From Hymenobacter tibetensis (GTDB lineage Bacteria > Bacteroidota > Bacteroidia > Cytophagales > Hymenobacteraceae): DNA of 64,000 nucleotides. The stretch's first letter is position 1. Each line of letters begins with the position of its first letter. Shown in pieces: positions 5,642 through 37,969 of the stretch. The notes under the pieces were generated by a model. The model was not told the origin of the DNA. It searched no databases and was given only the letters and a program-made list of their open reading frames with translations. A program made the translations under genes and the position numbers. The stretch spans positions 3,562,001 through 3,626,000 of the forward strand of contig NZ_CP094669.1 in assembly GCF_022827545.1 (NCBI RefSeq), written 5' to 3'.

Positions 5642-5686
5642 CCAAGAAGGCGAATCTGCCCGCGCTAGCCCTCCTGTACTCTTCCG
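5642..5686 (-). promoter_or_regulatory. PUL-type promoter of the first GH105 gene (TACAGG box, 21-nt gap)
   Basis: On the minus strand, GTACAGGAG (5671-5679) is followed after exactly 21 nt by CTTCTTGG (5642-5649), a degenerate -7 element. The box extends upstream as CGGAAGAGTACAGGAG. It lies 83 nt from the GH105 start. The same arrangement occurs before both susC genes, the GH2 gene and the deacetylase. Confidence 0.55.
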
Positions 5687-5687
5687 T

Positions 5688-5800
5688 TACCCCACCCCCG
5701 GCCCCTCCGGGAGAGGGGTGCCAGACGCAGGATGTTACAGAACGCACCCCTCTCCCGGAGGATGCTGCGCATCAAGCAGCGAGGGCCGGGGGTGGGGTTA
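5688..5800. repeat. GC-rich palindrome (CCCCACCCCCGGCC family)
   Basis: The left arm 5688-5720 and right arm 5745-5800 are reverse complements, the right arm carrying about 22 extra bases that form their own small hairpin (GCTGC...GCAGC). The right end overlaps the stop codon of the GH2 gene. It has no sequence in common with the CGTCATGCTGAGC palindromes, so it represents a second repeat family. Confidence 0.75.
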
Positions 5801-8665
5801 AAATAGCTCGTCTTTGGCTGGGGCCTTGTAGGGCTGGGGGGTGGCGTTGGATTTGGGGAGGCCGAAGAAGAAATAGAGGGTGCGTTTTGAGGGGCCGCTG
5901 ACGTGGTTTAGTTCACTGTTGGGGCCGAGGTTTTTGGTGTTGGCGTCGATGTTGAGGGCCAGCTTGGTGCCGAGCGGTGGAATGGTTTCCAGGAACGACA
6001 AGTTGCCGACGGGCAGCGACGGGTAGGGCTTCACGCCAGACAAGCCGTAGAAATCGAAGAGGCGCACAAACAACCCTTTGTCGGGGCTGGCGACCAGGAA
6101 TTTGCCTTCCACGGTGTTCATTTCCATCCAAGTGATGTCGGCGAAGTATCCTTTGAACTCGGGGTAAATCCAGGGGGCGGCGCCGGTTTGGGTGTTGTTG
6201 TAGGCGTTTTCCCACACACTTTCGCCTACGCCCTGCATGCGGTTTTTCCAGACGCGGTACGGGCCTTTGCCGAGCCACTTGGCGCCGAGCACGTAATTTT
6301 CGGGGTAGGTGAAGCTGATGCCGGTGAAGGGCAGGTCGCCGTTCACGGCGTACTCGTAGTCGAGGCGCAACCAGCCGTTGCCGTCCATCTTCCAGCGTAC
6401 CGATTTCAGGTCGCCTTGGTAACTCATTTCCACTACCTCGCCGTCGGGCTCGGTGCGGCGCTTCAAACTGGTGAAGGTGGCGTTACCGCTTACCAGAACG
6501 GGGCCTTTGCCGAAGCTGAGCTTGTCGCCGCTGTTGCCTTTCACGTCCTGGATTTCACCGGTTTTCTTGTTGAAGCTAACCGTGATGCCGGCGGCTTGCA
6601 GCGTGAGGGTGCTGTCGGTTTCGGTGGCGGCTACGGTTGGTTGCTTTTCCGTGCCGGGCAGAATGTTGCGAAGCAAGCGGGTGTTGTCGCCGGTTTTCCA
6701 GGTCCATTTGTACACCAGGTTTTTCTGCGGGTCGAAGGCCGAGAGTACTAGGGCATCATAGTCCTGCCAGTTTTTGGGCAGCTTGAGCTTCAACTCGCCC
6801 TGGCCTAGCGGTGCTACTTTCGGCGAGGTAGCGCGGCTTTTCTGGAGCGTAGTCGAGCCGGTGAATACTTCGCCCGGCTGGCGGTAATTCACCAATTCCC
6901 ACTGGAAGAAGCACTCATTCAGGTTGTTGTAGTGGTAGCGGTTTTCCACCGGAATAGTGCCCTTGAACTTGGCGGGCAATTCCTTCATGTCAATCTTGAT
7001 GGGCGAGAAAATCTCGCGCAGAGCGTAGAAACTACCCTCCTTTTCGCGGTGCGGACCTACCACGCCGTCGGGCGCATTCACGCCGTTCACGTCGATGATG
7101 TTGTTCTGATCTGTGCGCACGATGCCTTCGTCTACCAAGGCCCACAGGAAGCCGCCGCCGGAGCGTTGCGACTTCCAGTGCAGGTCCCAAAAGTCGGCCA
7201 AACCCACGGCGGCCCCGCCGTCGTCCTGCGCGTGCAGGAATTCGGTGGGCATATAAATCAAGGAATCGGCGAGGATTTTTTGGGTGCTGTAGTAGTTCTC
7301 GTAGTGGTTGCAGTCGATGCCGTTGAAGGCGTTGCCGGGGCGGTGGTGGGCGTGGATGACGGGGCGGTTCGAGAGGTCGTAGCGGCCGTAGTCGTCGTCC
7401 AGTTCCTTGTTGGTGCCGCCTTCGTTGCCGTTGCTCCAGAAGATGATGCTCGGGTGGTTAACGTCTTTTATCACCATTTCGCGCACCAGCTTCTCCCCTA
7501 CTTTGGTGCCGTAGGCCTTTTGCCAGCCGGCCAACTCATCGAGCACGTAGAGGCCGAGCGAGTCGCAGAGGTCCAGAAACTTGGCATCGGGTGGGTAGTG
7601 CGACATGCGCACGGCGTTCATGTTCATTTCCTTGATGAGCTTCACGTCCATCAAGTGAATTGAGTCGTTGAGGGTGCGGGCCGTTTCGGGCCACCAGCTG
7701 TGACGGTTGATGCCCTTCATCTTCACCTGCGTGCCGTTCACGTAGATGCCCTTGCCGCGCCGGATTTCGATGGTGCGGAACCCGAACTTCTCGGTGGTTT
7801 GGTAGAGCGTCTGGCCGCCCGCTTCCAGCCGGATGTTGGTGCGGTACATGTTCGGCTTCTCGGAGTTCCAAAGCAGCGGCTTGCTAACCGTGGTGCTGAG
7901 CTTCACCAGCGTATCGTTGGCGGCCGCGCGGCCCTGGGCAGTACCCACCACCTTGCCTTGTGCGTCCAGAATATCCGCCTTCACGTCGGTGGCTTGGCGC
8001 AAACCTTTGAGGGCGACATTGACGGCAAACGTACCGTCGGCGCGGGCATTGATGGCGGTATGCGGGATGAACTGCTTAGGATACGCTTCCAGATACACGG
8101 GCCGGAAAATGCCGCCAAACACCCAATAGTCGGCGAGGCGCTCGGCATTGTTCACGGTCGGTTCCGCCGACATCTTGCTGACAGTTATTTCCAGCAGGTT
8201 ATCCTGGTCGTACTTCAGCTTGTCGGTGAGGTCGTACTTGAAGCGGTAGAACGCGCCCTGGTGAATGGGGCCGGCTAGCTGGCCGTTTACCTTCACTTCG
8301 GTATCGGTCATCGACCCCTCAAACACGATATACACCTGCTGGCCTTGCCAAGCGGCGGGCACCTTGAACTGATGCTTATACTGACCTTTCTCGTCGGCGA
8401 AGCGGAAATTCTTGCCGTAGGTTTTGTAGTCGCGGCCGTAGTTGTAGCTGCCAAAACCCTGCTGCTCCCAACTCGAAGGCACCTGAATGGTGGTCCAGGC
8501 GCCACTGCGGCGGCCGCCGGTGCAGTAAAAATCCCAGGTTTTGGTGTGGATGTTGTCGGTGCCGGAGAGGTACTGTACCTGCTTGCGAGCCGACGTTTGG
8601 GCCGCGGCCGGCGCGGACCAGAACAACGCGGCGCAGGCCAGCCAAGACAGTAGATTGGTCTTCAT
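5798..8665 (-). CDS. GH2 family beta-galactosidase-like glycoside hydrolase
   Basis: A 955-aa secreted enzyme from ATG at 8665; an in-frame start 51 nt upstream would spoil the signal peptide (MKTNLLSWLACAALFWSAPAAAQ). An N-terminal sugar-binding sandwich (WTTIQVPSSWEQQGFG) and Ig-like domain precede a TIM barrel. The barrel carries KGINRHSWWPETART, NAVRMSHYPPDAKFLDLCD, WSNGNEGG (acid/base Glu) and MPTEFLHAQDDGG (candidate nucleophile Glu in the position of the family E-Y/F-x-H-A motif). The C-terminal part resembles the domain 4/5 region of large GH2 galactosidases. In a pectin locus it probably trims galactose side chains; other GH2 activities are possible. It is divergent from the antiporter gene and has its own promoter. 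Confidence 0.9.
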   Translation of the reverse strand: MKTNLLSWLACAALFWSAPAAAQTSARKQVQYLSGTDNIHTKTWDFYCTGGRRSGAWTTIQVPSSWEQQGFGSYNYGRDYKTYGKNFRFADEKGQYKHQFKVPAAWQGQQVYIVFEGSMTDTEVKVNGQLAGPIHQGAFYRFKYDLTDKLKYDQDNLLEITVSKMSAEPTVNNAERLADYWVFGGIFRPVYLEAYPKQFIPHTAINARADGTFAVNVALKGLRQATDVKADILDAQGKVVGTAQGRAAANDTLVKLSTTVSKPLLWNSEKPNMYRTNIRLEAGGQTLYQTTEKFGFRTIEIRRGKGIYVNGTQVKMKGINRHSWWPETARTLNDSIHLMDVKLIKEMNMNAVRMSHYPPDAKFLDLCDSLGLYVLDELAGWQKAYGTKVGEKLVREMVIKDVNHPSIIFWSNGNEGGTNKELDDDYGRYDLSNRPVIHAHHRPGNAFNGIDCNHYENYYSTQKILADSLIYMPTEFLHAQDDGGAAVGLADFWDLHWKSQRSGGGFLWALVDEGIVRTDQNNIIDVNGVNAPDGVVGPHREKEGSFYALREIFSPIKIDMKELPAKFKGTIPVENRYHYNNLNECFFQWELVNYRQPGEVFTGSTTLQKSRATSPKVAPLGQGELKLKLPKNWQDYDALVLSAFDPQKNLVYKWTWKTGDNTRLLRNILPGTEKQPTVAATETDSTLTLQAAGITVSFNKKTGEIQDVKGNSGDKLSFGKGPVLVSGNATFTSLKRRTEPDGEVVEMSYQGDLKSVRWKMDGNGWLRLDYEYAVNGDLPFTGISFTYPENYVLGAKWLGKGPYRVWKNRMQGVGESVWENAYNNTQTGAAPWIYPEFKGYFADITWMEMNTVEGKFLVASPDKGLFVRLFDFYGLSGVKPYPSLPVGNLSFLETIPPLGTKLALNIDANTKNLGPNSELNHVSGPSKRTLYFFFGLPKSNATPQPYKAPAKDELF

Positions 8666-8704: not shown

Positions 8705-8742
8705 CCAACTTACCATGGAATTTTTCTATCAGTAACCTGTAG
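8705..8742 (-). promoter_or_regulatory. PUL-type promoter of the GH2 gene
   Basis: On the minus strand, CTACAGGTT (8734-8742) lies exactly 21 nt upstream of TAAGTTGG (8705-8712), a one-mismatch TAnnTTTG. This is the most diverged box but spacing is kept. The rest of the 8666-9010 divergent gap contains an 8-bp inverted repeat (8766-8773 with 8803-8810) and presumably the antiporter promoter, which I could not place. Confidence 0.5.
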
Positions 8743-9010
8743 TATCCTGCTTTTACCGACAATGGGATACCGACGTACCATTTGGCTTTAGCTGAACAGG
8801 TTTCGGTATCAGGCAGATACTCCCAAACCCAAAGCACTCCGCAGACACTCTATTCTTCTATGCGGCCCCTGAAGTTTAACCTAAGCGCAGGCTACGCATA
8901 GCCATGCTACCGCAAGCAGCACCCGGGCTATCTAGCTGAACACTCCCTCACTATTTACGCTACCTTGGTGGCCCCGACAGTTACAATCGTAGTCACTTTC
9001 TCGGTCGTTT

Positions 9011-10669
9011 ATGCACCATACGCTACTGCTTTGCCTTGGGCTACTCCTAGCTATCTGCTTGCTTTTTACTTTGAGCCAGCGCTTACGCGTCCCTTATCCT
9101 ATTCTGCTGGTACTGGCGGGGTTGGCTATCAGCTTCATTCCTGGTCTTCCCTTATTAGAGGTGGAACCAGACCTCATTTTCCTGATTTTTCTACCACCGC
9201 TTCTCTACGAAGCTGCCTGGTTCACTTCCTGGAAAGACTTTTGGAAATGGCGCCGAATTATCAGCTTTCTGGCGTTCGGCTTGGTATTCCTCACGTCCGG
9301 CATCGTGGCGTACGTTTCGTGGGCCGTGATTCCGGGCTTCACGTTGGCGTTGGGCTTTCTATTAGGCGGTATCGTGTCGCCCCCTGATGCGTTGGCAGCA
9401 ACGTCGGTTATGCGTGATATGTCGCTACCGAGGCGCATCACCGCTATTCTGGAAGGGGAAAGTTTGGTGAATGATGCTTCCAGCTTAATCGTGTTTCGGT
9501 TTGCCTTGGCGGCGATATTGTCTGGCTCGTTTGTGTGGCAGCAGGCCGCGGGCAGTTTTCTGCTCGTCACGCTGCTTGGTATTGCCGTTGGCCTGGCCGT
9601 AGGAGTGGTGTTCTACACAATTCACCGCTGGCTGCCTACCACGCCTAGCACTCATACCGTTCTGACGCTGGTTACCCCTTATGTGATGTACGTAACGGCC
9701 GAAACGTGGCACGTTTCGGGCGTGATGGCGGTGGTGAGCGGTGGCTTATTTATGTCGTACCATAGCTCGCGCATCTTTTCGCCCATCAACCGGCGGCAGG
9801 GCATTAGCACCTGGACCACCGTTGGCTTCGTGTTGAATGGGGCTGTATTTATGCTCATTGGGCTGGAATTGCCCGTTATTACGGGTGCCCTAGGAGGCTA
9901 TTCCAAACTCGAGGCTGTTGGCTACGGCTTGCTGATTAGCGCGGTGGTGATTATCACGCGCCTTGTTGTTGGCATGTTGGGCTCCCCTTTCAGTCATTGG
10001 ATTAGCCGCTTCATTGAAGTCAGTGATGCCAATCCGGGCTGGCGGGGCCCCCTTGTTGTGGGCTATGCGGGCATGCGCGGGGTGGTGTCCTTGGCGGCCG
10101 CTTTATCTATTCCGCTGGTAGGCAATAACGGGCAGCCGTTTCCGGAGCGCAACTTGATCTTGTTCATCACTTTCGTCGTGATTCTGGTTACGCTAGTCGG
10201 CCAAGGCCTTACGCTGCCGCTGCTCATTCGCTGGATTGGGGTCGAGGACCGTGATAATCTGCGTCCCGAACACGAGCAGCGCAACACGGCCCGTCATCAT
10301 CTTACCACCGTGGCCCTGACCCGATTGCGTGCCCTTTATCAACCTCACCAGCGTAACCACAACGGCTTACTTGACACGCTCCAAAAGAAGCTGGAGAAAG
10401 ATCTGTACTTGATTACGCACCAGATGCAGCCAGTGGACCATCCCCACATCGAGCGCCAGGTAACCGAATACCAGCGCATCTACACCGAGTTGCTGCACGC
10501 GCAACGCGAGGAACTGCGCAGGCTCCGCGGCCAGGAAGAGTACAACGACGAGCTAATTCGCCACTTAGAGGCCCATCTGGATCTGGAGGAGGAAAAGCTG
10601 ACGCTATTTGTTGAAGCACAGCATCAACCAACGCCTCAGACCTTGCACGAGCAGCAACACAACACGTAA
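9011..10669 (+). CDS. CPA1-family Na+/H+ antiporter
   Basis: A 552-aa inner-membrane protein. About the first 400 residues are a run of hydrophobic helices, followed by a hydrophilic, heptad-like cytoplasmic tail of about 140 residues (HLEAHLDLEEEKLTLFVEAQ). CPA1 landmarks are SPPDALAA at 123-130 and EGESLVNDASSLIVFRFAL at about 148-166 with the paired Asn-Asp (154-155), plus GMRGVVSLAAALSIP near residue 357. Members exchange Na+ or K+ for H+ and are used in pH and salt homeostasis. It is the only plus-strand gene among the pectin enzymes, divergent from GH2 and convergent with GH105, so it is probably not part of that regulon. The ion specificity is not readable from sequence. Confidence 0.92.
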   Translation: MHHTLLLCLGLLLAICLLFTLSQRLRVPYPILLVLAGLAISFIPGLPLLEVEPDLIFLIFLPPLLYEAAWFTSWKDFWKWRRIISFLAFGLVFLTSGIVAYVSWAVIPGFTLALGFLLGGIVSPPDALAATSVMRDMSLPRRITAILEGESLVNDASSLIVFRFALAAILSGSFVWQQAAGSFLLVTLLGIAVGLAVGVVFYTIHRWLPTTPSTHTVLTLVTPYVMYVTAETWHVSGVMAVVSGGLFMSYHSSRIFSPINRRQGISTWTTVGFVLNGAVFMLIGLELPVITGALGGYSKLEAVGYGLLISAVVIITRLVVGMLGSPFSHWISRFIEVSDANPGWRGPLVVGYAGMRGVVSLAAALSIPLVGNNGQPFPERNLILFITFVVILVTLVGQGLTLPLLIRWIGVEDRDNLRPEHEQRNTARHHLTTVALTRLRALYQPHQRNHNGLLDTLQKKLEKDLYLITHQMQPVDHPHIERQVTEYQRIYTELLHAQREELRRLRGQEEYNDELIRHLEAHLDLEEEKLTLFVEAQHQPTPQTLHEQQHNT

Positions 10670-16053: not shown

Positions 16054-16195
16054 AGAGGAACGTTTCGAGGGCATTAGGTTCTCGTACTGCGCAAATGGAA
16101 GCATAGATTTTTTGCGGCGTGACTTAGGCTAAAGCTTGAGGCTGGCTAGAAGCTAGTTTTAGCTCTCCTTCCAGTAGCCTCATCGTTTTCAAAGG

Positions 16196-21564: not shown

Positions 21565-24500
21565 CTAGAAGGTAACGTTAACGCCTAGAGTCATCGATTT
21601 GGTGAGGGGCAATCCGCCGTAGTCGGTGCCAACCGAGAAGCCGCTGCCGCCGGTATCGGAGTTGGTGGCATCCACGTTGTAGCCGCCGCGGTAGGTGTCG
21701 TGGCCGAAGAAGTTTTCGGCCGACACATAAACGCGGGCTCCCTGCGCGTAGCGCTTACTGAGTACCTTACCCAAATTGTAGCCGAGCGTGATATTGCGAA
21801 TCCGGTAGTAGTTGGTCGAGTACTGCCAGGAGTCACTCTTTAAGGGCGTGAAGTTGGCTTGCGCCTTGCCCCGCTCCCCGGCGCCGGGGTTATCCTCGGA
21901 ACGCCACCGGTCACGCTGCAACCCGAGCACGTTCTGGTTGTAGCCCATGTTGGTGTTGTCGATGGCGCGCCCGATCAGCGAGTAGAGGCTGCCGCCGTTT
22001 TGGCCCTGCACCAACACGCTCAAATCGAAACCCTTGAAGCTGAAGTTGTTGGTGATGCCCCACGTAAGTTTGGGGTTCGGTTGGCCGATAATCACCCGGT
22101 CTTTCTCGTTGATGACGCCGTCGCCGTCGGCATCGAAATAGCGCGGGTCCCCGACGGTCTGGCCCTGGATGATAGCCGCGCCACCGTCGATGTCGCCTTG
22201 GTTCAGAATGCCGGTTTGCTTGATGGCGTAGAACACGAACATCGGCTGGCCCACCATCAGCAGGTTGCTGGAAGCACCGTAGGGTGAGGCAATTTCGATG
22301 GTCGCGTCGCCTTCCCCAAGGTGCACCACCTTGTTGCGGTTGTGGCTCACGTTCAGGGAAGTGTTCCACTCAAATTCCCCGGTTAGGTTGCGGGTCCGCA
22401 CTTCCAGTTCTAGGCCCTGGTTCAGCACCTCCCCAATATTAACTAGCTGCGACGCGTAGCCCGAAGCACTCGGCCGCGGCACGTTCAAAAGCAGGTCTTT
22501 GCTGGTTTTGGTGTAGTAGTCGAACGAGCCGGAAATGCGGTTGTCAATCACCCCGAAGTCCAAGCCCACATCAATGGTCTGCGACTTTTCCCAGCGCAAT
22601 AAATCGTTGGGTGCCTTGTTCGGCGACTGGCCCGAGGCAACCACGCCCCCAAACGTATACGGGTTCACGCCGAGCGTGGCAATGCTGCTGTAGTCGCCGA
22701 TGCCGTTGTTGCCCGACATGCCGTAGCTGCCCCGCAATTTCAACTCGCTGATTACGGGCAGGTTCTTCATGAAATTCTCTTGCGAGATGCGCCAACCCAA
22801 CGAACCAGCCGGGAACACGCCCCAGCGGTTGTCGGCGCCAAACCGCGAGGAACCGTCGCGGCGCACACTGGCCGTAGCCAGGTATTTGCCTTCAAACGAG
22901 TACTGCACGCGCCCGAAGTAAGACAGCAGCACGTTCTGCGTTTCGGTGGTGCCGTTGTCGGCAGTGCCCGTGATGTTGGTGGCCCCGTTGAGCGTGGTTA
23001 CGGCGCTGTTGGTGAAGCCGCCCGACGACCGGAGCCGGTCGGTTTCGGTTTTAAAGAAGTTGTAGGCATAGCCCGCCAGCGCCGCTATATCGTGCTTCCC
23101 GATAACGCGGTTGTAGGCCAAGGTATTCTCGTTCACGAACGCCTGTTTGCGGTAGCCGCTGAACGTACCCGTGGCCCCCGAGCCCACCAGCCGCGAGTTC
23201 GGAATGTAGCTCTTGGCCCGCGAGTCGGTGTTGTCGAGGTTGAGGGAGGTGCGGAAGCGCAAGTTCTTGATCAGCTCGTACTCGCCAAACACCGTGCTCA
23301 GTGTCCGGAACACGGTGCTTTGCTGCTGCCGGTTGGTGAGTTCCCCCACCGGGCTGATGCTGCTGCCGCCCCAAGTATACACCGGGTTGTCGCCGTAGTT
23401 GGTGAGCACACCGGCCGAAGACTCGGCCACGGGCACCATGGTGATAAACTTCTGCGCCAAGTTGTCCTTGCCTTCCACGCCGGGGTCTTTCGATATGGCG
23501 TAGCTCGGGCTGATATTGAGGCCGAATTTCAGTTTGTCGCTGGCTTTCACTTCCACGTTGGCGCGCGCTGAATAACGCTTATACGCCACCCCAATCACAA
23601 TGCCTTCCTGGTCGGTGTAGTTGCCCGACAGGTAGTAGTTCACGTTGTTAGTGGCCCCACTGGCCGATATCTGGTAGTTCTGAACTTTACCGGTCCGGAA
23701 GATTTCGTCTTGCCAATCAATGTAGTCGAGGCCCTCGTGGTTGGGCAGCAGCCACCGGTCGTCGATCATCTGGCTCGGGTTGATGGTGGTCACCCCTAAT
23801 ATAGCCTGGCGCTCGGCCGTGGTTTGGCTAGCCAGGCGCGGCCGAGCGCCCGGCGTAGTAGGCTGTGAGCGGACCCAGTTGTTGTTGATGATTTCGGTGG
23901 ACCGCTCCACCCATTCCTCGGCGCTTAACAGATCCAGCTTCTTGGCCATCTGCGAAATGCCGCCGTACACATTGAAGTTGATTTGGGGCTTGCCGGTCTT
24001 GCCGCGCTTGGTGGTTACCAGCACCACGCCGTTGGCCGCACGCGAACCATAAATAGCCGCCGCTGCCGCATCCTTCAGCACCTCAATCGACTGAATATCG
24101 TTGGGGTTGATGTTGTCGAGCGGGCTGCCGGTGGCGTAGTTGCCGTTGCCATTGGGCGAGGTGCCTTCCAGCGGAAACCCGTCGATTACATACAGCGGCT
24201 GGTTGTTGGCCGTGATGGAGCCGTTGCCCCGTACCTGCACGTTGAAGCCCCGACCCGGCAAGCCGGTGTTCTGCTGTACGTTCACGCCTGCCAACGTTCC
24301 CACCAACGCCTGATCGACGCGCAGAATGGGACGCTCTTCCAGTTTGCTGGCATCAAGAGTGGCAATAGCGCCCGTTACGTCGGCTTTTTTCTGCGTGCCA
24401 TAGCCTACTACCACTACTTCGTCGAGGCTCTTGGTATCCTCCGTTAGCTTGATCGTAAGCGCGCCGGCCTCGGAAAAACTTTGCTCTCGGGTTTGAAAGC

Positions 24501-24777
24501 CGATATAGCTGAAGACCAGGGTCCCGGCTCTTTCAGGCACCGATAAGGTAAAGTTGCCGTCGGCGCCGGTGGTCGTGCCCACGGTAGTGCCTTTGAGCAC
24601 CACGGTCACACCCGGCAGACCTTCGTTGCTTTGAGAAACCACCCGACCTGTGAGCTGCCAGTCGGCTACCACCTTGGTTAGGGGGCGGGCTTGTAGTGTA
24701 GTAATACCGGGGCCTGCTAACAGCAAAGGCAGGCAGACCACCAGCTGGCCGCGCCGCCATGTGTAGTTTTTCTTCAT
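21565..24777 (-). CDS. SusC/RagA-family TonB-linked outer-membrane transporter (pair 1)
   Basis: A 1,070-aa SusC-type porin. After a signal peptide come a CarboxypepD-reg-like domain (about 42-115; LTGRVVSQSNEGLPGVTVVLKG), the TonB-box-like stretch DEVVVVGYGTQKKADVTGAI, the plug (VRGNGSITANNQPLYVIDGFP, LKDAAAAAIYGSRAANGVVLV) and a long beta-barrel ending in ...KSMTLGVNVTF with a terminal Phe. No N-terminal STN domain is present, so it is not of the sigma/anti-sigma signalling type. It imports oligosaccharide together with the SusD encoded just downstream. The sequence is close to SusC at 26795-30004 along its whole length. Its promoter region (24832-24876) carries the same 16-bp box as its paralogue. 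Confidence 0.97.
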   Translation of the reverse strand: MKKNYTWRRGQLVVCLPLLLAGPGITTLQARPLTKVVADWQLTGRVVSQSNEGLPGVTVVLKGTTVGTTTGADGNFTLSVPERAGTLVFSYIGFQTREQSFSEAGALTIKLTEDTKSLDEVVVVGYGTQKKADVTGAIATLDASKLEERPILRVDQALVGTLAGVNVQQNTGLPGRGFNVQVRGNGSITANNQPLYVIDGFPLEGTSPNGNGNYATGSPLDNINPNDIQSIEVLKDAAAAAIYGSRAANGVVLVTTKRGKTGKPQINFNVYGGISQMAKKLDLLSAEEWVERSTEIINNNWVRSQPTTPGARPRLASQTTAERQAILGVTTINPSQMIDDRWLLPNHEGLDYIDWQDEIFRTGKVQNYQISASGATNNVNYYLSGNYTDQEGIVIGVAYKRYSARANVEVKASDKLKFGLNISPSYAISKDPGVEGKDNLAQKFITMVPVAESSAGVLTNYGDNPVYTWGGSSISPVGELTNRQQQSTVFRTLSTVFGEYELIKNLRFRTSLNLDNTDSRAKSYIPNSRLVGSGATGTFSGYRKQAFVNENTLAYNRVIGKHDIAALAGYAYNFFKTETDRLRSSGGFTNSAVTTLNGATNITGTADNGTTETQNVLLSYFGRVQYSFEGKYLATASVRRDGSSRFGADNRWGVFPAGSLGWRISQENFMKNLPVISELKLRGSYGMSGNNGIGDYSSIATLGVNPYTFGGVVASGQSPNKAPNDLLRWEKSQTIDVGLDFGVIDNRISGSFDYYTKTSKDLLLNVPRPSASGYASQLVNIGEVLNQGLELEVRTRNLTGEFEWNTSLNVSHNRNKVVHLGEGDATIEIASPYGASSNLLMVGQPMFVFYAIKQTGILNQGDIDGGAAIIQGQTVGDPRYFDADGDGVINEKDRVIIGQPNPKLTWGITNNFSFKGFDLSVLVQGQNGGSLYSLIGRAIDNTNMGYNQNVLGLQRDRWRSEDNPGAGERGKAQANFTPLKSDSWQYSTNYYRIRNITLGYNLGKVLSKRYAQGARVYVSAENFFGHDTYRGGYNVDATNSDTGGSGFSVGTDYGGLPLTKSMTLGVNVTF

Positions 24778-24831: not shown

Positions 24832-24876
24832 TAAAAGTATTTGCTTACTCACCCACAACTCTCCTGTACCGTACCG
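24832..24876 (-). promoter_or_regulatory. PUL-type promoter of susC pair 1
   Basis: On the minus strand, CGGTACGGTACAGGAG (24861-24876) is followed by 21 nt and then TACTTTTA (24832-24839), a one-mismatch -7 element about 55 nt before the start codon. The box contains a GTACGGTAC repeat. The identical 16-mer lies before the paralogous susC at 30093-30108. A further GTACAGGAA at 25128-25136 has only a poor -7 match at the same spacing. I see nothing else in the 467-bp gap apart from the terminator at 25188-25223. Confidence 0.65.
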
Positions 24877-25187
24877 CCCAGCAGAGCCAATTTCCACTTG
24901 CCTTTTTTCCGCAAAGCCTTGCGCTACAACAGCTTTCCCAGCCACCATGCCTTCTTCACGCAGCTTGTTCTAAGCTTCTTACTCCGTACAAGAAAAACAC
25001 CTATCCTACACAACTAACTTATTATTAGATTCTTACAATGACATACAGTACCGCTGAATAGATCATGCCGACCCTACAATATGAGCATGACAATGTGAGA
25101 AACTGAGAATTTTGCTTTGCCTTGTTTTTCCTGTACTACTCCTGCACTGCAGACCGGTTGAACACGTACACAGGCCCTATAAACAAA

Positions 25188-26794: not shown

Positions 26795-29700
26795 TTAGAA
26801 GGTGACGTTAAGCCCCAAGATCAGCGACTTGGTTAAGGGCAGGCCGCCATAGTCCACCCCGATAGGGAAGCTGTCGTCGCCGCCGGCGGTGTTCACGGCT
26901 TCGGGGTTGAGGCCCCCTTTGTACTTGTCGTGCCCAAAGAAATTCTCGGCCGTCACGTAGATGCGGGCACCCTGCGCAACTTTTTTATTGACCAGCAGCC
27001 CTAGGTCGTAGCCCACGGTGATGTTGCGGATGCGGTAGTAGTCCGACGAGTACAGCCAGTCGGTGTTTTTGATGCGGCCGAAGGTGGAGTACGCCTTGCC
27101 ACGCTCTCCGGCGCCGGGGTCTTCGGGGGAGCGCCACCGGTCACGGTAAAGGCCGAGCACGTTGTCGGGTTGGCCGGTACCGGTACGGTCGACGGCGCGG
27201 CCGAACAGCGAGTAGATAGAGCCGCCGTTTTGCCCCTGTACCAGCACGCTCAAATCGAAGCCTTTGTACTTGAAGCTGTTCGTGATGCCCCAGCTATAGT
27301 CGGCGTTGGGGTGGCCCACAATCTGGCGGTCGTTGGCGTCAATCTTACCGTCACCGTTGTAGTCCACGTACTTCGGGTCGCCCACGGTTTGTGAGCCGTA
27401 GCGGGCTGCGCCATTATCCAGGTCGGCTTGGGAAAGAATACCGTCCTGCTTCACCACGTAGATGCTGTAAAGCGGCTGCCCTACTTGCAGGATGTTGTTG
27501 GGAATATCGAAGGCCGACAGCACCTGAATGGGCGCGTTGTTGGCGCCCAAACGCACCACCTTGTTGGTGTTGTGGCTCACGTTCACCGAGGTAGTCCACT
27601 GGAACTCTCCCACAAAGTTGCGGCTGGTTAGCTCCAGTTCCTGCCCCCGGTTCAGCACCTCCCCGATGTTGGTGAGCTGAGTGGCAAAGCCGGCCCCAGC
27701 TAGTATCGGAATGTTGAGCAGCAGGTCTTTGCTGGTTTTGGTGTAATAGTCGAACGAACCGGTGATGCGGTTCTTCAGCAGCCCGAAATCAAAGCCCACA
27801 TCATAGGTGCGCGACCGTTCCCACTTCAGGTTAGGGTTGTTGACGCGGTTGGGCGCCTGCCCGTTGAACTGCGTGCCGCCGTAGGTGTAGTTGAAAATAC
27901 CGAGCGTGGCAATGCTGCTGTAGTCACCGATGCCGTTGTTGCCGGAGTAGCCCACGCTGGCCCGCAGCTTCAAGTCGCTGACGGGGGTCAGGCCCTGCAT
28001 AAAGTTCTCCTGCGAGATGCGCCAGCCCACCGAGGCCGCCGGAAACACCCCAAACTTGGTGTTGTCGCCGAACCGCGACGAGCCGTCGCGCCGGATGCTG
28101 GCCGACGCCAGGTATTTGCCACCATAGGCGTACTGCAAGCGCCCGAAGTAGGAAATCAGGACGTTCTGGGTTTCGGTGGTGAAGTTGCCCGCGGTGCCGC
28201 TGATGGTGGTCGCGGCGTTCAGCGTCGTGACGGCGCTGTTCACAAATCCGTTGGCGGCCGTTAGGGCCTGCGCGTTTAGTTTGGTGAAGTTGTAGGAGTA
28301 ACCGGCCAGTCCCGTTAGGTCGTGCTTGCCACCTAGCGTGCGGTTGTAGGTCAGCGTGTTCTCATTCACGAAGGTTTGCTTGCGAAACGAGCTAAACGAA
28401 CCCGAGGCCTGCCGGTTTCCCAAGCTGCCATTCACGAAGGCCGGAACGTACGACTTGGACTCGGCATCGGTGTTATCGAAATTGGCCGTGGAGCGAAACG
28501 CCAGGTTTTTGACGGGCTGAAACTCGGCGTAGATGGTGCCTAGCGTCCGCAGGGTGCGGGTGTCGCCGATGGCGTTTTCCAGCACCCGAATCGGGCTGTT
28601 GCGCGTGAAGCCCCAGGCGTAGTTGGTGAAGTCGCCGGTGTTGGTGTTCAGGCCGGCTGCGCTTTCCACCACCGGCGACGTGGAAATAATGTTTTGCATC
28701 AAGTTGTCCTTGCCTTCCACCCCTGGGTCGGAGCTGATGGCGTAGCTTGGGCTGATGTTGAGGCCGAACTTGAACTTGTCGCTGGCTTTCACTTCCACGT
28801 TGGCACGCGCCGAGTAGCGTTTGTAGCCTAGCCCAATCACCACGCCGTCCTGCTTCTGGTAGTCGCCGGAAACGTAGTAGTTCACGAAGTCGCTGGCGCC
28901 GCTGGCGGAGAGTTGAATGTCCTGGGTGAAACCGGTCCGAAACGCCTCGTCCTGCCAATCCACATAGTCGAGGCCGGGGTGACCGGGTTGCAACCACCGC
29001 TCGTCAATCATCAGGGTGGGGTTGATGGTGTTGACGCGCAGAATGGTCTGGCGCTCGGCGGTGGTCTGGCTGGCCAGGCGGCCCGCTCCAGAGTTAACCC
29101 AGTTGGCATTGATGATTTCGATGGAGCGGTCCACCCACTCCTCGGAATTCAGCATATCCAGCTTGCGCACGGCCTGCACAAAACCCGCGTAGGTGTTGAG
29201 GTTGATTTTCGGCTTGCCCGACTTGCCGCGCTTGGTGGTGATGAGCACCACCCCGTTGGCCGCCCGCGAGCCGTAGATGGCCGCCGCCGCGGCATCTTTC
29301 AGCACCTCGATGTTCTCGATGTCATTGGGGTTGATGTTGTCGAGGGGGCTCCCAGAGCCGAAACGGCCCGACGAGTTCTGCGACGCTGCTTCCAAGGGAA
29401 AGCCGTCGATAACGTACAAAGGCTCGTTGTTGGCGGTGATGGAGCCGGAACCCCGCACCTGCACCGAAAAGCCCCGGCCCGGCACGCCGGTAGTTTGCTT
29501 GACTTGCACACCCGCCAACTGCCCCACCAGCGCCTGATCGACGCGGGTGACGGGCCGCTCGGTTAGCTTTTCGGCGTTGAACGAAGCAATGGCCCCCGTA
29601 ACGTCGCCGCGCTTCTGCGTGCCGTACCCGACCACCACTACCTCGTCGAGGTTCTTAACGTCTTCGCCGAGCGTTACCGTAACGGGTCCGGGTCCCGCAA

Positions 29701-30004
29701 AGCTTTGCTCTTTGGTTTGAAAGCCGATGTAACTGAATACCAGGGTGCCGGCATTCTCGGGCACCGACAGCGTGAAGGTACCATCAGCGCCCGTAGACGT
29801 ACCGACCGTCGTTCCTTTGAGCACCACCGTTACGCCCGGCAGGCCCTCATTGGTTTTGGAAACCACGCGGCCCGTTATCTGCCATTCGGCTACCATGTTG
29901 GTGGAAGGCCGGGCCTGTACGGCAGTTACGCCCGGCCCAGCCAAGAGTAGCACTGGCAAGCACACCGCAAACCGGCCGTGTTGCCATTTGTAGTTTTTCT
30001 TCAT
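26795..30004 (-). CDS. SusC/RagA-family TonB-linked outer-membrane transporter (pair 2)
   Basis: A 1,069-aa SusC paralogue, one residue shorter than the copy at 21565-24777 and alike along its length. A signal peptide, the CarboxypepD-reg-like domain (ITGRVVSKTNEGLPGVTVVLKG), the TonB box region DEVVVVGYGTQKRGDVTGAI, plug and barrel are all present and intact, ending ...SLILGLNVTF. No STN domain. It is the first gene of the minus-strand block, divergent from the AraC-family regulator, and has a promoter box identical to that of pair 1. It imports pectin-derived oligosaccharide, with the exact ligand unknown. Confidence 0.97.
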   Translation of the reverse strand: MKKNYKWQHGRFAVCLPVLLLAGPGVTAVQARPSTNMVAEWQITGRVVSKTNEGLPGVTVVLKGTTVGTSTGADGTFTLSVPENAGTLVFSYIGFQTKEQSFAGPGPVTVTLGEDVKNLDEVVVVGYGTQKRGDVTGAIASFNAEKLTERPVTRVDQALVGQLAGVQVKQTTGVPGRGFSVQVRGSGSITANNEPLYVIDGFPLEAASQNSSGRFGSGSPLDNINPNDIENIEVLKDAAAAAIYGSRAANGVVLITTKRGKSGKPKINLNTYAGFVQAVRKLDMLNSEEWVDRSIEIINANWVNSGAGRLASQTTAERQTILRVNTINPTLMIDERWLQPGHPGLDYVDWQDEAFRTGFTQDIQLSASGASDFVNYYVSGDYQKQDGVVIGLGYKRYSARANVEVKASDKFKFGLNISPSYAISSDPGVEGKDNLMQNIISTSPVVESAAGLNTNTGDFTNYAWGFTRNSPIRVLENAIGDTRTLRTLGTIYAEFQPVKNLAFRSTANFDNTDAESKSYVPAFVNGSLGNRQASGSFSSFRKQTFVNENTLTYNRTLGGKHDLTGLAGYSYNFTKLNAQALTAANGFVNSAVTTLNAATTISGTAGNFTTETQNVLISYFGRLQYAYGGKYLASASIRRDGSSRFGDNTKFGVFPAASVGWRISQENFMQGLTPVSDLKLRASVGYSGNNGIGDYSSIATLGIFNYTYGGTQFNGQAPNRVNNPNLKWERSRTYDVGFDFGLLKNRITGSFDYYTKTSKDLLLNIPILAGAGFATQLTNIGEVLNRGQELELTSRNFVGEFQWTTSVNVSHNTNKVVRLGANNAPIQVLSAFDIPNNILQVGQPLYSIYVVKQDGILSQADLDNGAARYGSQTVGDPKYVDYNGDGKIDANDRQIVGHPNADYSWGITNSFKYKGFDLSVLVQGQNGGSIYSLFGRAVDRTGTGQPDNVLGLYRDRWRSPEDPGAGERGKAYSTFGRIKNTDWLYSSDYYRIRNITVGYDLGLLVNKKVAQGARIYVTAENFFGHDKYKGGLNPEAVNTAGGDDSFPIGVDYGGLPLTKSLILGLNVTF

Positions 30005-30063: not shown

Positions 30064-30108
30064 CTAAGCTATTCTTCTCCCTCCCCCGAACCCTCCTGTA
30101 CCGTACCG
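30064..30108 (-). promoter_or_regulatory. PUL-type promoter of susC pair 2
   Basis: On the minus strand, CGGTACGGTACAGGAG (30093-30108) lies 21 nt upstream of TAGCTTAG (30064-30071), a one-mismatch TAnnTTTG about 60 nt from the start codon. The box is the same 16-mer, at the same gap, as in front of susC pair 1, although the sequences between box and -7 differ. Confidence 0.65.
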
Positions 30109-30178: not shown

Positions 30179-30275
30179 GCCTTATTTGGGGCGCAGAAGC
30201 GTTGAAACAAACGGGTTAAACATTCCACTCGACTTGCGGTTTGCTGATGATTCGCTTGCTCTTGCCCCGTTCCCG

Positions 30276-33041: not shown

Positions 33042-33048
33042 GTTGGCG

Positions 33049-34566
33049 TTAGTTTTTTCCTTGCGTTGGGGTGGGCCAGGTGTCGGTGCGGAAAGGCGAA
33101 GCCGGTAGGCCGGCGGCATTGTATAGGTTGGGCTCCGGCGAAATGCTCCACCCAAACCGTACGGCCACCGGCTGTTTCACTTTCTCGCTCCACACTACCA
33201 CCGTGTTGCCCTGGATTTGTGCCTGCGCAGGCACGAAAACGCTGTCGGGGCCCGCCACCGAGAACTTGCGCAGCGGCCCCCCTTTGGCTTGCAGCCCGTC
33301 GGCGTACTTGAATTGCAAGCGAGCTTTGCCGTTTTCCACCTTCATGGATTCGTAGATGGGGCCGGAGTAGGGCAGCTTGGTTTGCCCGTATTCGTGGCTT
33401 AAGGCCCACAGCGCCAGTCGGTGCCCGACCACCTGCTTGTTGCGCGGATGGATGTCCAGCGAGTCGCCGGCATCGGTGATGACGGCCATGCCAGTGTGGG
33501 GCACGGTTTGCATGGTCACCAACTGCGACTCCCTAATTTCAGGGTTCTGGCTGCGGTTGGGCGCTATTTGCACGAAGTAAAACGGCAAGGTGGGCTGCTG
33601 CCACTCTTGGCGCCAGTTGGCAATCAGGGCCGGAAACAGCTTACGGTACTGGTAGGCCCGCTCGGCGTTGCTCTCGCCCTGGTACCAGATAACCCCGCGC
33701 AGTGTGTATGGTATTAGGCCCTTAATCATGCCGTTGTAGAGCTTGTAGGGCGACTTGTTGCTGGTGGCGCTAAGCGGCTCGGCGGGTTTGGGGCGGGTGG
33801 TTTGGGGGTTGGCTTCGCGCTCCTGCTTCCAGGCGGCCAGCGCCGTTTCGTAGGCGGGCCGCTGGGTGAGGCCCTGCTCGTAGCGCGTCAGAATCGGGCG
33901 CAGCTCCGGGTCCTTTTCCAGCACATCCTTGCGGGTCCAGGACTCGGCCGGCGTTCCACCCCACGACGAGTGGATCAGACCCATTGGCACCTTGGTTTTC
34001 TCGTGGATTTCCTGGCCGAAAAAGTACGCCACCGCCGAAAAATTACCTACCGTTTCGGGGCTGCACACCGCCCAGCTCCCCTGCACGTCGCGCTCCGGCG
34101 CGTCGGCCACCTTCTGCACCACCGTGAACATCCGGATGTTGGGGTAGTTGGCTTTCAGAATCACTTCCTCGGCGTTGATGATGCCGGTGTAGGAGCCGCT
34201 GTTGGGTCGTTTGGTTACCGGGAAGTTCATGTTCGACTGCCCCGAGCACAACCACACTTCCCCGAGCATTACATTGTTGATGGTCAGCTGATTGTTGCCC
34301 TGCACCTGTAGCGTGTAGGGCCCGCCCGCCTTGCCCGTCGGTACGCGCACCAGCCACTTGCCCTCTTTGTCGGCCACCACCTTGCGGGGCGCTTTCTGCC
34401 AGCCGACCGTCACGGTTACCACCTCGCCCGGCTCGGCCCAGCCCCACAGCGCCACGTTTGTTTTCTGCTGTAGCACCATGTTGTCGGTCATCAGCGCGGG
34501 CAACGTGACATCGGCACGGGAGGCAAATGGAGCAAGCAGGAGCAGTAAGGGCAGCTTGTGACGCAT
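33049..34566 (-). CDS. Sialate O-acetylesterase-type (SGNH) carbohydrate esterase
   Basis: A 505-aa secreted protein with a signal peptide (MRHKLPLLLLLAPFASRA). SGNH hydrolase landmarks are GEVWLCSGQSNMNFP (Ser111 of GQSNM as nucleophile), SSWGGTPAESW, GVIWYQGESNAERAY and DSLDIHPRNKQ (Asp371/His373), the usual layout of sialate O-acetylesterase-like enzymes of Bacteroidota. An N-terminal beta-sandwich (residues 20-100) precedes the catalytic domain. In a pectin locus it most likely removes acetyl groups from galacturonate rather than sialate. It is downstream of the propeller hydrolase and separated from it by a palindromic element. No TACAGG-type promoter is evident. Confidence 0.9.
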   Translation of the reverse strand: MRHKLPLLLLLAPFASRADVTLPALMTDNMVLQQKTNVALWGWAEPGEVVTVTVGWQKAPRKVVADKEGKWLVRVPTGKAGGPYTLQVQGNNQLTINNVMLGEVWLCSGQSNMNFPVTKRPNSGSYTGIINAEEVILKANYPNIRMFTVVQKVADAPERDVQGSWAVCSPETVGNFSAVAYFFGQEIHEKTKVPMGLIHSSWGGTPAESWTRKDVLEKDPELRPILTRYEQGLTQRPAYETALAAWKQEREANPQTTRPKPAEPLSATSNKSPYKLYNGMIKGLIPYTLRGVIWYQGESNAERAYQYRKLFPALIANWRQEWQQPTLPFYFVQIAPNRSQNPEIRESQLVTMQTVPHTGMAVITDAGDSLDIHPRNKQVVGHRLALWALSHEYGQTKLPYSGPIYESMKVENGKARLQFKYADGLQAKGGPLRKFSVAGPDSVFVPAQAQIQGNTVVVWSEKVKQPVAVRFGWSISPEPNLYNAAGLPASPFRTDTWPTPTQGKN

Positions 34567-34810: not shown

Positions 34811-35902
34811 TCAAGTAATCTTGAACACAAACGCGGAGGCTGTCATGCTTGTGCCGCCTTGGGAAGCTCCAAACAGGTACTCGGGCTTGCCGTTGCGCAT
34901 AAGCAGCTGCGGGCGTTCCAGCCGACCGTAGCGTTTCAGATTTTTGGGCGCGGGTGGCTCCTGCACCCCGTACGCGCGCAACGGCAAGAAGGCTACCTTC
35001 GGAAACGTCCACTCCTTGCCGTCCTTGGACTCCAGATACAGTCCCACTTCGTGGTTATAGACGCCCATGTCGCGGGCCAGCATTTTGAAGCGGTTGTCTT
35101 CGCGCCACACAAAAGCATCCTCGAACTGCTTGTTGTTGCCTTGTTTCGAGAAGTCGATAACTGGGTTGCCGGCGTATTTCACGTACGGGCCTTCCAGTTG
35201 CTCGGCCACCGCCAACCCATACTTCCGGTTGCCCCGGATGGTGGGGTCGGTGGCCGTGAGGTAGTCCTGCGTGTTCCACGACTTGTAGTACAGCCAATAT
35301 TGGCCGTTGGGGTGCTTGATGAAGGCCGGGTTGGTGGTGCAATGGTCGTCCCAGGCGCCGGCGTCACCGGCTTCGAGCAGGGGCTGGTCGGGGCGCTGCC
35401 AAGGGCCGTTCAGCGAGTCGGCGGTGGCCAGGCCGATGCGCTTGGTGTCGGTTTTGCCGTTGGAGTTGCCCATGTAGAACAGGCAGTACTTGCCGTCCAC
35501 GAACTGAATGCTGGGGTTGTGGCAGGTGGTGGCATCCCAGTAGCCCGGCCCGCGCGGCGCCAGCACCGTTTCCAGATACTGGAACGGACCAGCAGGCGAA
35601 TCAGCCACGGCGTGGGCAATTTCCGAGCTGTTGAGCCAGCCGCCCATGCCTTTGGCCTTAGGCCAGCGCGAGAAAAACACGTGCACTTTGCCGTCAAGCC
35701 CATATAGGGGTGAGTTGCACCATACGTACCACTCAGGCAGTTCCAGCGCCCGCCCCACGGGCTTGAGGTGCTTGCTGAACTTGGACAGGCTGTTTTTCGG
35801 CAAATCCAGGAATTTGTCTGCCCCAAACCCCTTGGCGGCACCTAGTGCCTGCGCAAAAGGTGCCAGCACCAGACCCGCTAGAAACGCTCTTCGAGTTGGC
35901 AT
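34811..35902 (-). CDS. Five-bladed beta-propeller glycoside hydrolase-like protein with Tat-type signal
   Basis: A 363-aa protein. The N-terminus (MPTRRAFLAGLVLAPFAQALGA) has a twin-arginine motif (Arg4-Arg5) followed by a hydrophobic run, suggesting Tat export of a folded protein. Repeats such as VWCNSPLYGLDGKVHVFFSRW, TTCHNPSIQFVDGKYCLFYMG and DHCTTNPAFIKHPNGQYWLYY fit a GH43/GH32/GH117-like five-bladed propeller. Candidate acidic residues lie in AGAWDDHCTTNP and QFEDAFVWRED. The family is not settled. The start codon directly abuts the stop of the PL22 gene, so the two are translationally linked, and its substrate is presumably a product or side chain of the same pectin. Confidence 0.75.
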   Translation of the reverse strand: MPTRRAFLAGLVLAPFAQALGAAKGFGADKFLDLPKNSLSKFSKHLKPVGRALELPEWYVWCNSPLYGLDGKVHVFFSRWPKAKGMGGWLNSSEIAHAVADSPAGPFQYLETVLAPRGPGYWDATTCHNPSIQFVDGKYCLFYMGNSNGKTDTKRIGLATADSLNGPWQRPDQPLLEAGDAGAWDDHCTTNPAFIKHPNGQYWLYYKSWNTQDYLTATDPTIRGNRKYGLAVAEQLEGPYVKYAGNPVIDFSKQGNNKQFEDAFVWREDNRFKMLARDMGVYNHEVGLYLESKDGKEWTFPKVAFLPLRAYGVQEPPAPKNLKRYGRLERPQLLMRNGKPEYLFGASQGGTSMTASAFVFKIT

Positions 35903-37129
35903 CTATAAGTTGGATTTGGCAATTTCTACGGCGTATATCTGGCTCTTGCCCTCGAAGTTGGCGCGGAAAATAACCCACTTCTCGTCCGGCGAAAAATGCA
36001 CATTGGGCTCTAGCGCGTAGTCATGCTGCTTCATGTTTACTAGCTTCTCCGACGTGAACTTCACCCCCTGCGGCCGTAGCAAATAGATCCACTTGCCATC
36101 GGGAGCTTTCGCCACCGCAGTTTCGTTGCCCCCGTCGCCGGCAAACAGCAGTTGGCTGGGAGAAACCGTGTAGTGCACAGACCACTCGTTGCGCTCCAAC
36201 TGGCACTTTCTCTCGTAGCCGTTTTTCAAGTCAGTGCCCGACACAAAGAAGGTTTCGCCACGCGGAAGCTGCTGGTCGTACCAGATGGTCTTGCCGTCGG
36301 GGCTGAAGAACTCGTGCCCAACGATTTCCATGTCCATGGTGCGCTTGTGCACCAGCTTCACGTCTTTGCTCTGGATATCGATGGTCCAGATGCGGTCCAC
36401 TTTGTGCCAGGGGCCTTCGTGGCAAAACATGAGCAGCTTCGGATCGGTGGGCGAAAACTGCACGTGGTTCAGCCAGGCCTTGTCGGTGAACAGCTTGTTG
36501 ATGGTGCCGTCCTGCACGTTCACCGTGAACAGTGTGCGCGGCAGCTTGGCTTCGTAGATGCGGTTGAAATAGTCACTTTTAGCCGGATACTTCTTGGAGA
36601 TTTCCTTTTCCTCGTCTGTTGCCCACACCCCACCCAGCAGCGTTTCGTCGGCGTTGAGGGTGGTGATGGTGGCTTTGAAGTCAGCAGGGAACACGAAAAC
36701 CAGGCGGGTCTTTTTGGTGTCCACGTGGGTGGCGTACACACTGTCGCCGGTTTGGTAAAACACCTCCCGGCGCTTGGGTGCCACTATTTCGCCGCTCACC
36801 GACGCAAATGCCCTGGTGAGGGGCTGGCTCTGCCGGGTTTTTAAACTCACGACGTAGAGTTGCTTGCCTTCGGGGCTTTTGTGGTAGTACACCATTTTGT
36901 CGCCGTCGCGGCCGTTCTTCTTCAGGAAGGGGTTGTTGTGAAAGTAGAAGCTCTCGTTTTCGCCGCTCAACCCGCTCAGCCGCACAATGCGGTGGCCCGT
37001 GGACTCATCAATCCATTCGGCCGCGGCCATGGGTTTCTGCGCGCCGGTAGCTAGCCTTTGCTGCGCCTGGGCACGCCCGCCAAGGTGCAACAAACCGCTG
37101 AGCAAGAGGAAGGACAAGGTTTTTTTCAT
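35903..37129 (-). CDS. ogl: PL22 oligogalacturonate lyase
   Basis: A 408-aa beta-propeller lyase with an N-terminal signal peptide (MKKTLSFLLLSGLLHLGGRAQA). PL22 enzymes cleave unsaturated and saturated digalacturonate by beta-elimination to 4-deoxy-5-keto-uronate, with Mn2+ held by histidines. Family signatures seen are GHRIVRLSGLSGENESFYFH, LNHVQFSPTDPKLLMFCHEGPWHKVDRIW (given in parts: His222, His237, His242), EIVGHEFFSPDGKTIWYD (His272) and NEWSVHY (His319). Many PL22 enzymes are cytoplasmic, so the clear export signal is notable and implies periplasmic action. It follows the deacetylase remnant by 22 nt and abuts the propeller hydrolase gene. Confidence 0.92.
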   Translation of the reverse strand: MKKTLSFLLLSGLLHLGGRAQAQQRLATGAQKPMAAAEWIDESTGHRIVRLSGLSGENESFYFHNNPFLKKNGRDGDKMVYYHKSPEGKQLYVVSLKTRQSQPLTRAFASVSGEIVAPKRREVFYQTGDSVYATHVDTKKTRLVFVFPADFKATITTLNADETLLGGVWATDEEKEISKKYPAKSDYFNRIYEAKLPRTLFTVNVQDGTINKLFTDKAWLNHVQFSPTDPKLLMFCHEGPWHKVDRIWTIDIQSKDVKLVHKRTMDMEIVGHEFFSPDGKTIWYDQQLPRGETFFVSGTDLKNGYERKCQLERNEWSVHYTVSPSQLLFAGDGGNETAVAKAPDGKWIYLLRPQGVKFTSEKLVNMKQHDYALEPNVHFSPDEKWVIFRANFEGKSQIYAVEIAKSNL

Positions 37130-37151
37130 TGGATGGGCAGAAAGTAGGGGG

Positions 37152-37894
37152 TTATTTCAGCTGTTGGTAAGTGGGTTGGAGGAGGCGTATGGCTTCCGGC
37201 ACATTTACGTACTGGGCCAAGTCGCGCAGCGCAACCACTTGGTAGTGGTTGTCGTGTAAATATTTCAAATATTCTTCGAAAAGAGCCAACGGCGTCGTCA
37301 CCCAACTGTGCGCGTAGTCCGGAACACCGTGTACGGTAAGCACCACCACATTGCCTCCACGGGCCTGCTGCACCACCTCTTTGATGTCGAGCTTGTCGGC
37401 GCTGGCGGTGCTGTAGCTGGGTGATAGCCTTGCGCCTGTAGCACCGCCAGCGCCGTGGGGTGCGTATCGTAGCCGGGATAGGCGAAGGTGGTAGGGCGCG
37501 CAATGCGGTAGGTGGCGCACCGTTTTTCTATTGAGTCCAGCTCTGCTGTGAGTTGCGGCGGGGTTAGCTTGTTTACGTGCCGGTGCGTGAGGGTGTGGCT
37601 AGCTACTTCAAACCCGGCTTGGTGCAGCCCTTGGATCTGCGCCCAGCTCATGTACTTGGTTTTGTCGGCGAAGTCAGGCGGAAACTCGCACACGAAGAAT
37701 GTGCCGCCAAACCCGTACTTCTTCAGCAGCGGCGCTACCACCGTGGCGTGACTAACGGCGCCATCATCAAAGGTGAGCACCACCAGCTTGTCGGGAATGG
37801 GCTGCCGGAGCACCTGCGCGGTGGCGCTTGGGGTGGCCGCGCTGCCCCACAAAGCAAGCAATACAATGGCGTAACGAGCGAGATAATGCAGCAT
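37152..37894 (-). pseudogene. Polysaccharide deacetylase, frameshifted (possible internal deletion)
   Basis: From ATG 37894, a signal-peptide-like start leads to the NodB-type deacetylase motifs KLVVLTFDDGAVSHATVV (metal-binding Asp pair), EVASHTLTHRHVN and TFAYPGYD. At about 37421-37426, just after AVLQAQGY, the reading frame changes: the matching continuation PSYSTASADKLDIKEVVQQA and VVVLTVHGVPDYAHSWVTTP runs in another frame to a stop at 37152. In relatives, a loop of about 20 residues normally joins these two parts, so a small deletion with frame loss is likely. All catalytic motifs survive, split over two frames. It is the first gene of the deacetylase-PL22-propeller unit and carries a PUL-type promoter. 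A sequencing error is the alternative. Confidence 0.75.
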
Positions 37895-37924
37895 GGGCAC
37901 TGGAATGGCAGGTGGAAGGTATAT

Positions 37925-37969
37925 CTAAGAAAGTCTTAGGATAGCTCCCGACCTTCCTGTACTCTTTGG
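37925..37969 (-). promoter_or_regulatory. PUL-type promoter of the deacetylase-PL22 unit
   Basis: On the minus strand, GTACAGGAA (37954-37962) lies exactly 21 nt before TTTCTTAG (37925-37932). Upstream the box reads CCAAAGAGTACAGGAA, close to the GH105 box (CGGAAGAGTACAGGAG). It lies about 60 nt from the start codon. Confidence 0.5.

Follow-up and report, generated by a model that had tools for sequence, protein, structure and literature searches.

A conserved tandem-repeat site at pectin and rhamnose promoters of Hymenobacter, with a GntR/LacI-like protein as its candidate regulator

In the published account of Bacteroides thetaiotaomicron, as far as its relevant passages go, the rhamnogalacturonan I (RG-I) loci are assigned to the hybrid two-component systems HTCS_Rgu-1 and HTCS_Rgu-2, and the rhamnose operon to the AraC-type regulator RhaR (PMC3878776). 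A survey of rhamnose regulons names the AraC, DeoR and LacI families, and the term 'GntR' does not occur in its main text (PMC3870299). Passages on GntR proteins report direct repeats for some members, and TauR has been described as an activator (PMC4494728, PMC5320631). Here we examined a 64-kb stretch of Hymenobacter tibetensis (contig NZ_CP094669.1; the window), in which an earlier note had proposed that five promoters of a pectin locus share a TACAGG box at a fixed distance from the −7 element. We found that the element is a conserved tandem repeat, that it is also present at the promoters of the rhamnose genes, and that the rhamnose operon encodes a GntR/LacI-like protein which is a candidate for its regulator.

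The five pairs of 9-mer box and 8-mer −7 element, each with a gap of 21 nt, were all found where they had been reported, and the −7 elements were as degenerate as claimed. The 16-mer CGGTACGGTACAGGAG is indeed common to both susC promoters, and these are its only two occurrences in the genome. TACAGG held as the common core of the box, but GTACAGGA did not hold as the shared form, since the box of the GH2 gene is CTACAGGTT. Likewise, the shared architecture, the rigid spacing and the position over the −33 region were upheld, but the single box was replaced by a tandem CAGGAGAG repeat with a 10-bp period (CAGGAGAG-N2-CAGGAGAG). The downstream copy is TACAGGAG, and TACAGG belongs to this half. 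Counted from −7, the downstream half would lie at about −40 to −33 and the whole site at about −48 to −33. A palindrome, GTAGWCTAC, is present in many susC sites and some AraC-gene sites; it is missing from the GH2 and rha sites and was rejected as the unit of the site.

Conservation was examined in 120 Hymenobacter genomes, 42 of which gave strong hits to the susC2 protein. TACAGGA was present 5' of 27 of the 29 susC2 orthologues examined; one of the other two has CAACAGGAGGG instead (L109) and one has neither (L099). Both half-sites, in the form CAGG-N6-CAGG, are kept in 12/12 Hymenobacter GH2 orthologues. Box and −7 element, the latter 21 nt downstream, were found at all three deacetylase orthologues (L334, L437, L438) and at all four distinct evaluable GH105 orthologues, counting L120 and L439 as one genome and excluding L329, which is cut at its edge. 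The alignment of pectin promoters in relatives that the earlier note had called for thus showed the site conserved at susC, GH2, GH105 and deacetylase orthologues. As judged from these alignments, the site is confirmed as a real, evolutionarily conserved putative promoter element at a fixed distance from −7.

The spacing was counted at unique sites, those of H. tibetensis included, which had been chosen by box or repeat and not by their −7. TT stood in register 21 nt past the downstream half at 23/27 susC sites, 22/22 AraC-gene sites, 49/52 rha sites and 9/12 GH2 sites, the remaining three GH2 sites having TT off by one. Counts were also high at 20 nt (17/27 for susC) and 22 nt (52/52 for rha) owing to runs of T within the −7 element; at gaps of 12 to 19 nt, no group had more than three sites with TT. 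In four target groups, a site over the −33 region lies 21 nt from −7, an arrangement that answers to a class II activator. Class II activators of the PhoB/OmpR type and the MarA type bind, at a fixed phase, sites that overlap the upstream promoter element or stand in its place; these are proteins unrelated to the candidate, and the likeness is in mechanism only. As far as the source describes them, Bacteroidota primary-sigma promoters carry TAnnTTTG at −7 and TTTG at −33 (PMC7366714). The −7 element is good at many susC orthologues, where it is closer to TAnnTTTG than that of H. tibetensis, is NNNNTTTG at the rha promoters, and is poor at the GH105 and deacetylase genes. TTTG at −33 is inconsistently present across the target promoters.

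The window on its own is insufficient to settle whether the pattern is real. TACAGG occurs 18 times in it, and TACAGG-N(d)-NNNNTT six times at d=23, which corresponds to the 21-nt gap, whereas every other value of d between 8 and 40 gave three matches at most. Genome-wide, TACAGG-N23-TNNNTT gave 38 matches vs 9 with a reversed control, but this short pattern is a poor marker of the regulon, since among its 38 matches five lie in the window, namely four claimed sites and 25101–25135, the last of which the matrix described below does not pick and which we rejected. The GH105 site does not fit the pattern, its −7 beginning with C. In the same genome, GTACAGGA-N18..24-TNNNTTTG gave five matches, none in the window, and CRG-N7-CAGG-N23-TNNNTT gave 35 vs 10 in the control, most of the subset examined not being recognisable as pectin genes. 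Of 46 SusC genes over the TIGR04056 cut-off, only four have TACAGG no more than 300 nt from their first in-frame ATG, and two of these are the pairs in the window.

A matrix was then built from 108 sites of other genomes, leaving H. tibetensis out; its training set included orthologous susC and GH2 sites and held no GH105, deacetylase or GH28 sites. In the window it recovered the five claimed sites and a sixth, at 552–596. The top score over 20 order-1 Markov windows was 16.3, and this was exceeded by the GH2, susC2, susC1, GH28 and GH105 sites. A further match in L264 (29.5) falls within a coding frame and was discarded.

All six sites lie on the minus strand, and are given here as upstream half / downstream half-N21-−7. 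The site at 5642..5686 (CGGAAGAG / TACAGGAG-N21-CTTCTTGG; matrix score 21.8) precedes a GH88/GH105-type unsaturated rhamnogalacturonyl hydrolase-like gene (4425..5588, −; Pfam PF07470). Directly 5' of this site is a long GC-rich inverted repeat (CCCCACCCCCGGCCC...GGGCCGGGGGTGGGG; 5680–5800, −), and a similar one is found 5' of the GH2 gene in L119. The site at 8705..8749 (CAGGATAC / TACAGGTT-N21-TAAGTTGG; 33.8) precedes the GH2 gene (5798..8665, −; Pfam), whose start was placed, from the leader sequence, at a signal-peptide ATG in preference to the ATG at 8716, which precedes the −7 element. The sites of the two susC pairs are at 24832..24876 (CGGTACGG / TACAGGAG-N21-TACTTTTA; 30.9), before susC 1 (21565..24777, −) and its partner susD 1 (20012–21544), and at 30064..30108 (CGGTACGG / TACAGGAG-N21-TAGCTTAG; 32.0), before susC 2 (26795..30004, −) and its partner susD 2 (25245–26768), both susC genes being identified by Pfam and TIGR04056. 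The site at 37925..37969 (CCAAAGAG / TACAGGAA-N21-TTTCTTAG; 12.3) precedes a polysaccharide deacetylase-like gene (37298..37894, −; Pfam, with the ATG read from the sequence). This is followed on the same strand by genes for PL22 (35903–37129), GH43 (34811–35902) and a SASA esterase (33049–34566), all by Pfam, and gene order and strand suggest that the four form an operon. The sixth site, absent from the earlier note (CAGGAGAG / TGCGGGAC-N21-CAGATTTG; 29.9), precedes a GH28 gene with its ATG at 408 (−), which matches PF12708 on the part in the window and PF00295 on the part beyond it. Between the pectin blocks, a Na+/H+ exchanger gene (9011–10669) lies on the plus strand, with no matrix hit before it.

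The regulon was said to span both enzyme blocks, and this was borne out; it also extends beyond pectin enzymes, to the rhamnose operon and to an AraC gene elsewhere in the genome, unlinked to the locus. A strict pattern, TACAGGANNGT-N18-TANNTT, gave 55 matches in 35 of the 120 genomes (box-positive; the other 85 are box-negative) vs 3 in the control, a few of them within coding sequence. Besides susC, it marked the unlinked AraC gene, PL11 rhamnogalacturonan lyase genes in relatives (identified by Pfam in G101 and G013 and by sequence in G118), and the gene for a 1257-aa protein with a type IX secretion system tail, for which Pfam gives no lyase and whose first residues look PL1 pectate lyase-like. 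The rhaT/rhaEW intergene holds the best copies, such as CAGGAGAGAGCAGGAGAGTTT and CAGGAGAGTGCAGGAGTT, with one directed towards each of the two genes, and at least one strict copy was present at each of the 28 rha loci examined (28 genomes). In 0.54 Mb of the H. tibetensis genome scanned with the matrix, overlaps included, sites outside the window scored 41.2 (AraC gene), 34.4 (rhaT), 32.3 (rhaEW) and 24.0 (rhaI). Two weak candidates scored 16.4, at the level of the null maximum, one before uxaC-kdgK-kdgA-MFS (L061:1153, about C1:2048152; UxaC identified by Pfam and the others from their sequence) and one before a GDSL/YXIM-type esterase gene (L069:1523, about C1:3521022); the functions of both suit pectin use. 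A site scoring 30.4 lies 381 nt before another susC (L024:4962, −), beyond the usual leader distance.

The unlinked gene encodes a cupin-type AraC protein, here called TF1 (L228:6932–7825 = C1:1237434–1238324), and its own promoter contains the site in 23/26 genomes. No such box was found upstream of TF1 orthologues in the 10 loci read from outside the genus, nor in G071 and G087. Its neighbours are genes for an SSF transporter, for a DHDPS-type aldolase and for a GH2 enzyme; divergent from it is a gene for a 521-aa protein (L228:8455–10020), whose matches to fucose isomerase all stay below threshold and which has no relative of solved structure at E≤0.001. TF1 is a possible second-tier regulator.

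Concerning the protein that binds the site, a candidate gntR gene (C1:3549657–3550664) is located in the operon rhaEW-gntR-rhaI-rhaK-lut, 11.3 kb left of the window. Its product has an N-terminal GntR winged helix (PF00392, 51.3 bits against a cut-off of 27) and a LacI/ribose-binding-type effector domain (PF13377, over cut-off), and NCBIfam gives it no name over cut-off. The DNA-binding domain of AraR (4egy) was matched by sequence and the AraR sensor (3tb6) by fold. The protein is encoded in 33/35 box-positive vs 20/85 box-negative genomes, and the repeat with its 21-nt spacing was found beside the gene in 9/20 loci outside the genus. A 728-aa protein of the window (13918–16104, −), for which neither Pfam nor NCBIfam gives a match at E≤0.001, is kept in 10/20 Hymenobacter pectin loci and shows 56–59% identity to copies beside the GntR gene in loci of two other genera; it appears to be an unnamed RG-I-linked family.

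Starting from what was observed, that is the site, its spacing, its conservation, the co-occurrence and the neighbourhood, we consider it somewhat more probable than not that the sites are bound by this rhamnose-operon protein and that it activates the RG-I and rhamnose genes, with binding, effector and activation all predicted. Every site would be served by a single factor, in which a GntR-type winged helix is joined to a LacI/ribose-binding-type sensor. The two CAGGAGAG copies, 10 bp apart and on the same face of the DNA, would be bound head to tail by two DNA-binding domains. Ending 21 nt before −7, the downstream half, TACAGGAG, would occupy the position of the −33 element, and the protein would contact RNA polymerase and substitute for the missing −33, as in class II activation. 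Taking into account that the gene lies in a rhamnose operon and that the sensor is of the sugar type, L-rhamnose or an early catabolite would be the simplest effector. The controlled set would comprise GH28, GH105, GH2, the two susCD pairs, the deacetylase-PL22 group, and rhamnose uptake and catabolism. In such a loop, SusCD would import RG-I fragments, the rhamnose released would be imported by RhaT and load the sensor, and both enzyme blocks and the rha operon would then rise together.

Several results weigh against this assignment. The upstream half is degenerate at the susC, GH105 and deacetylase sites, and the deacetylase score of 12.3 is below the Markov maximum, within the null range, so that this site is carried by its conservation and not by its score. 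The Rufibacter and Botryobacter GH2 orthologues, the sole two viewed from other genera, have no site, and no clear site was seen in 11/20 GntR loci outside the genus, with about 11 kb scanned in each. Two box-positive genomes lack the protein, G026 and G091 (83% complete), and the co-occurrence itself is confounded by shared ancestry and target presence, the rha operon being a target. GntR proteins, as summarized in one source, generally bind palindromes (PMC5320631), and the title of 4egy calls AraR, the closest relative in domain make-up, a repressor.

The sign of regulation is the weakest step, and AraR-like repression the main rival: the same GntR protein would block the −33 region and be released by rhamnose, as AraR is by arabinose. 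Its domain make-up matches AraR, a site over the −33 region would shut out polymerase, and a −33-like GTTT directly follows the box at many sites. A repressor, however, would not need exact 21-nt phasing, which is kept by four unrelated target groups and also in other families, and the presence of a clear TTTG at −33 is inconsistent. The exact phase at unrelated promoters fits better, on present alignments, with polymerase contact than with simple blocking, and we regard repression as unlikely.

It is also improbable that the sites are bound by another regulator, for instance one of the AraC or the hybrid two-component kind, and that GntR is merely carried along with the rha operon. As mentioned above, hybrid systems have been assigned to the RG-I loci of Bacteroides, and TF1 has the site in its own promoter; TF1 is however missing from 14/35 box-positive genomes, and we rejected it as general regulator while retaining it as a target. 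When 30 of the 43 HTH_18 proteins from three box-positive genomes (G069, G068 and G032) were compared, at least four AraC groups were common to all three (neighbourhood viewed for two, by leader sequence), which also counts against the GntR protein, as does a 1432-aa HTH_18 protein encoded in G068 about 17 kb from a box-bearing susC, with a relative in G032. No G069 protein in the comparison was closely related to the latter. One hybrid-type protein was common to all three genomes; it adjoins, from leader sequences, SusCD, an MFS transporter and a fructokinase-like gene, and was set aside on these neighbours. The tandem sites of hybrid systems average about 21 bp apart in the passages available (PMC3878776), not 10 as here, and none of the AraC or hybrid candidates is located in the rha operon. 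The AraC-family protein of the locus (30186–31130), which the earlier note had named for a test of binding, found no support: no match of ≥45% identity at E≤1e-40 was present in 37 loci, which take in the surroundings of susC2 in both of the closest relatives, weaker matches not being shown. Finally, although the motif was picked after the window had been viewed, the two susC pairs are paralogues and the deacetylase score is within the null range, it is scarcely credible that the five sites are chance matches or were retained by recent duplication, as orthologues of all targets conserve the site, which already contradicts this, the GH105 site was recovered by a matrix trained without that group, and the site is also found at rha promoters and in other families.

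With the GntR protein as predicted activator, the closest known systems can be compared. AraR of Bacillus subtilis likewise joins a GntR DNA-binding domain to a LacI-type sensor, but it has a palindromic operator, whereas here a direct repeat lies over −33 at fixed spacing before rhamnose and RG-I genes and probably serves an activator; the difference in operator is valid only if the site is that of the GntR protein. FarR, NagQ, NanR and the MocR-type TauR are GntR-family proteins with direct-repeat operators like the present site, and differ from it in that the half-site here is CAGGAGAG, the period 10 bp and the −7 that of Bacteroidota. The sensor domains of FarR, NagQ and NanR also differ from that of the candidate. 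Bacteroides controls the same substrates and targets (SusCD, RG-I hydrolases and rhamnose genes) with separate regulators for the polysaccharide loci and the rhamnose operon, whereas here a single site serves both. The sites of DeoR-type RhaR, described in passages of the rhamnose survey as imperfect direct repeats of 10–11 bp (PMC3870299), resemble the present one, but the protein family differs. Literature searches, covering titles and selected passages, found no paper on the present regulon; judged on these, the kind of protein and the kind of operator are each known, and the combination, the target set and the promoter phase look new.

A motif noticed by eye has thus become a regulon with a proposed regulator, site, phase and likely signal. 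We tentatively propose, at slightly less than even confidence, that one cytoplasmic GntR/LacI-type rhamnose sensor is the class II activator for the whole RG-I programme in Cytophagales, possibly including uxaC-kdgK-kdgA and the second-tier AraC. The promoter set should be useful for examining how an activator replaces −33 for the unusual Bacteroidota sigma factor. If the proposal is true, a family usually regarded as palindrome-binding repressors would fill the role of the Bacteroides two-component systems. The results suggest that in Hymenobacter and its relatives pectin uptake is controlled by the monosaccharide released and sensed inside the cell, and not by a membrane sensor of oligosaccharides.

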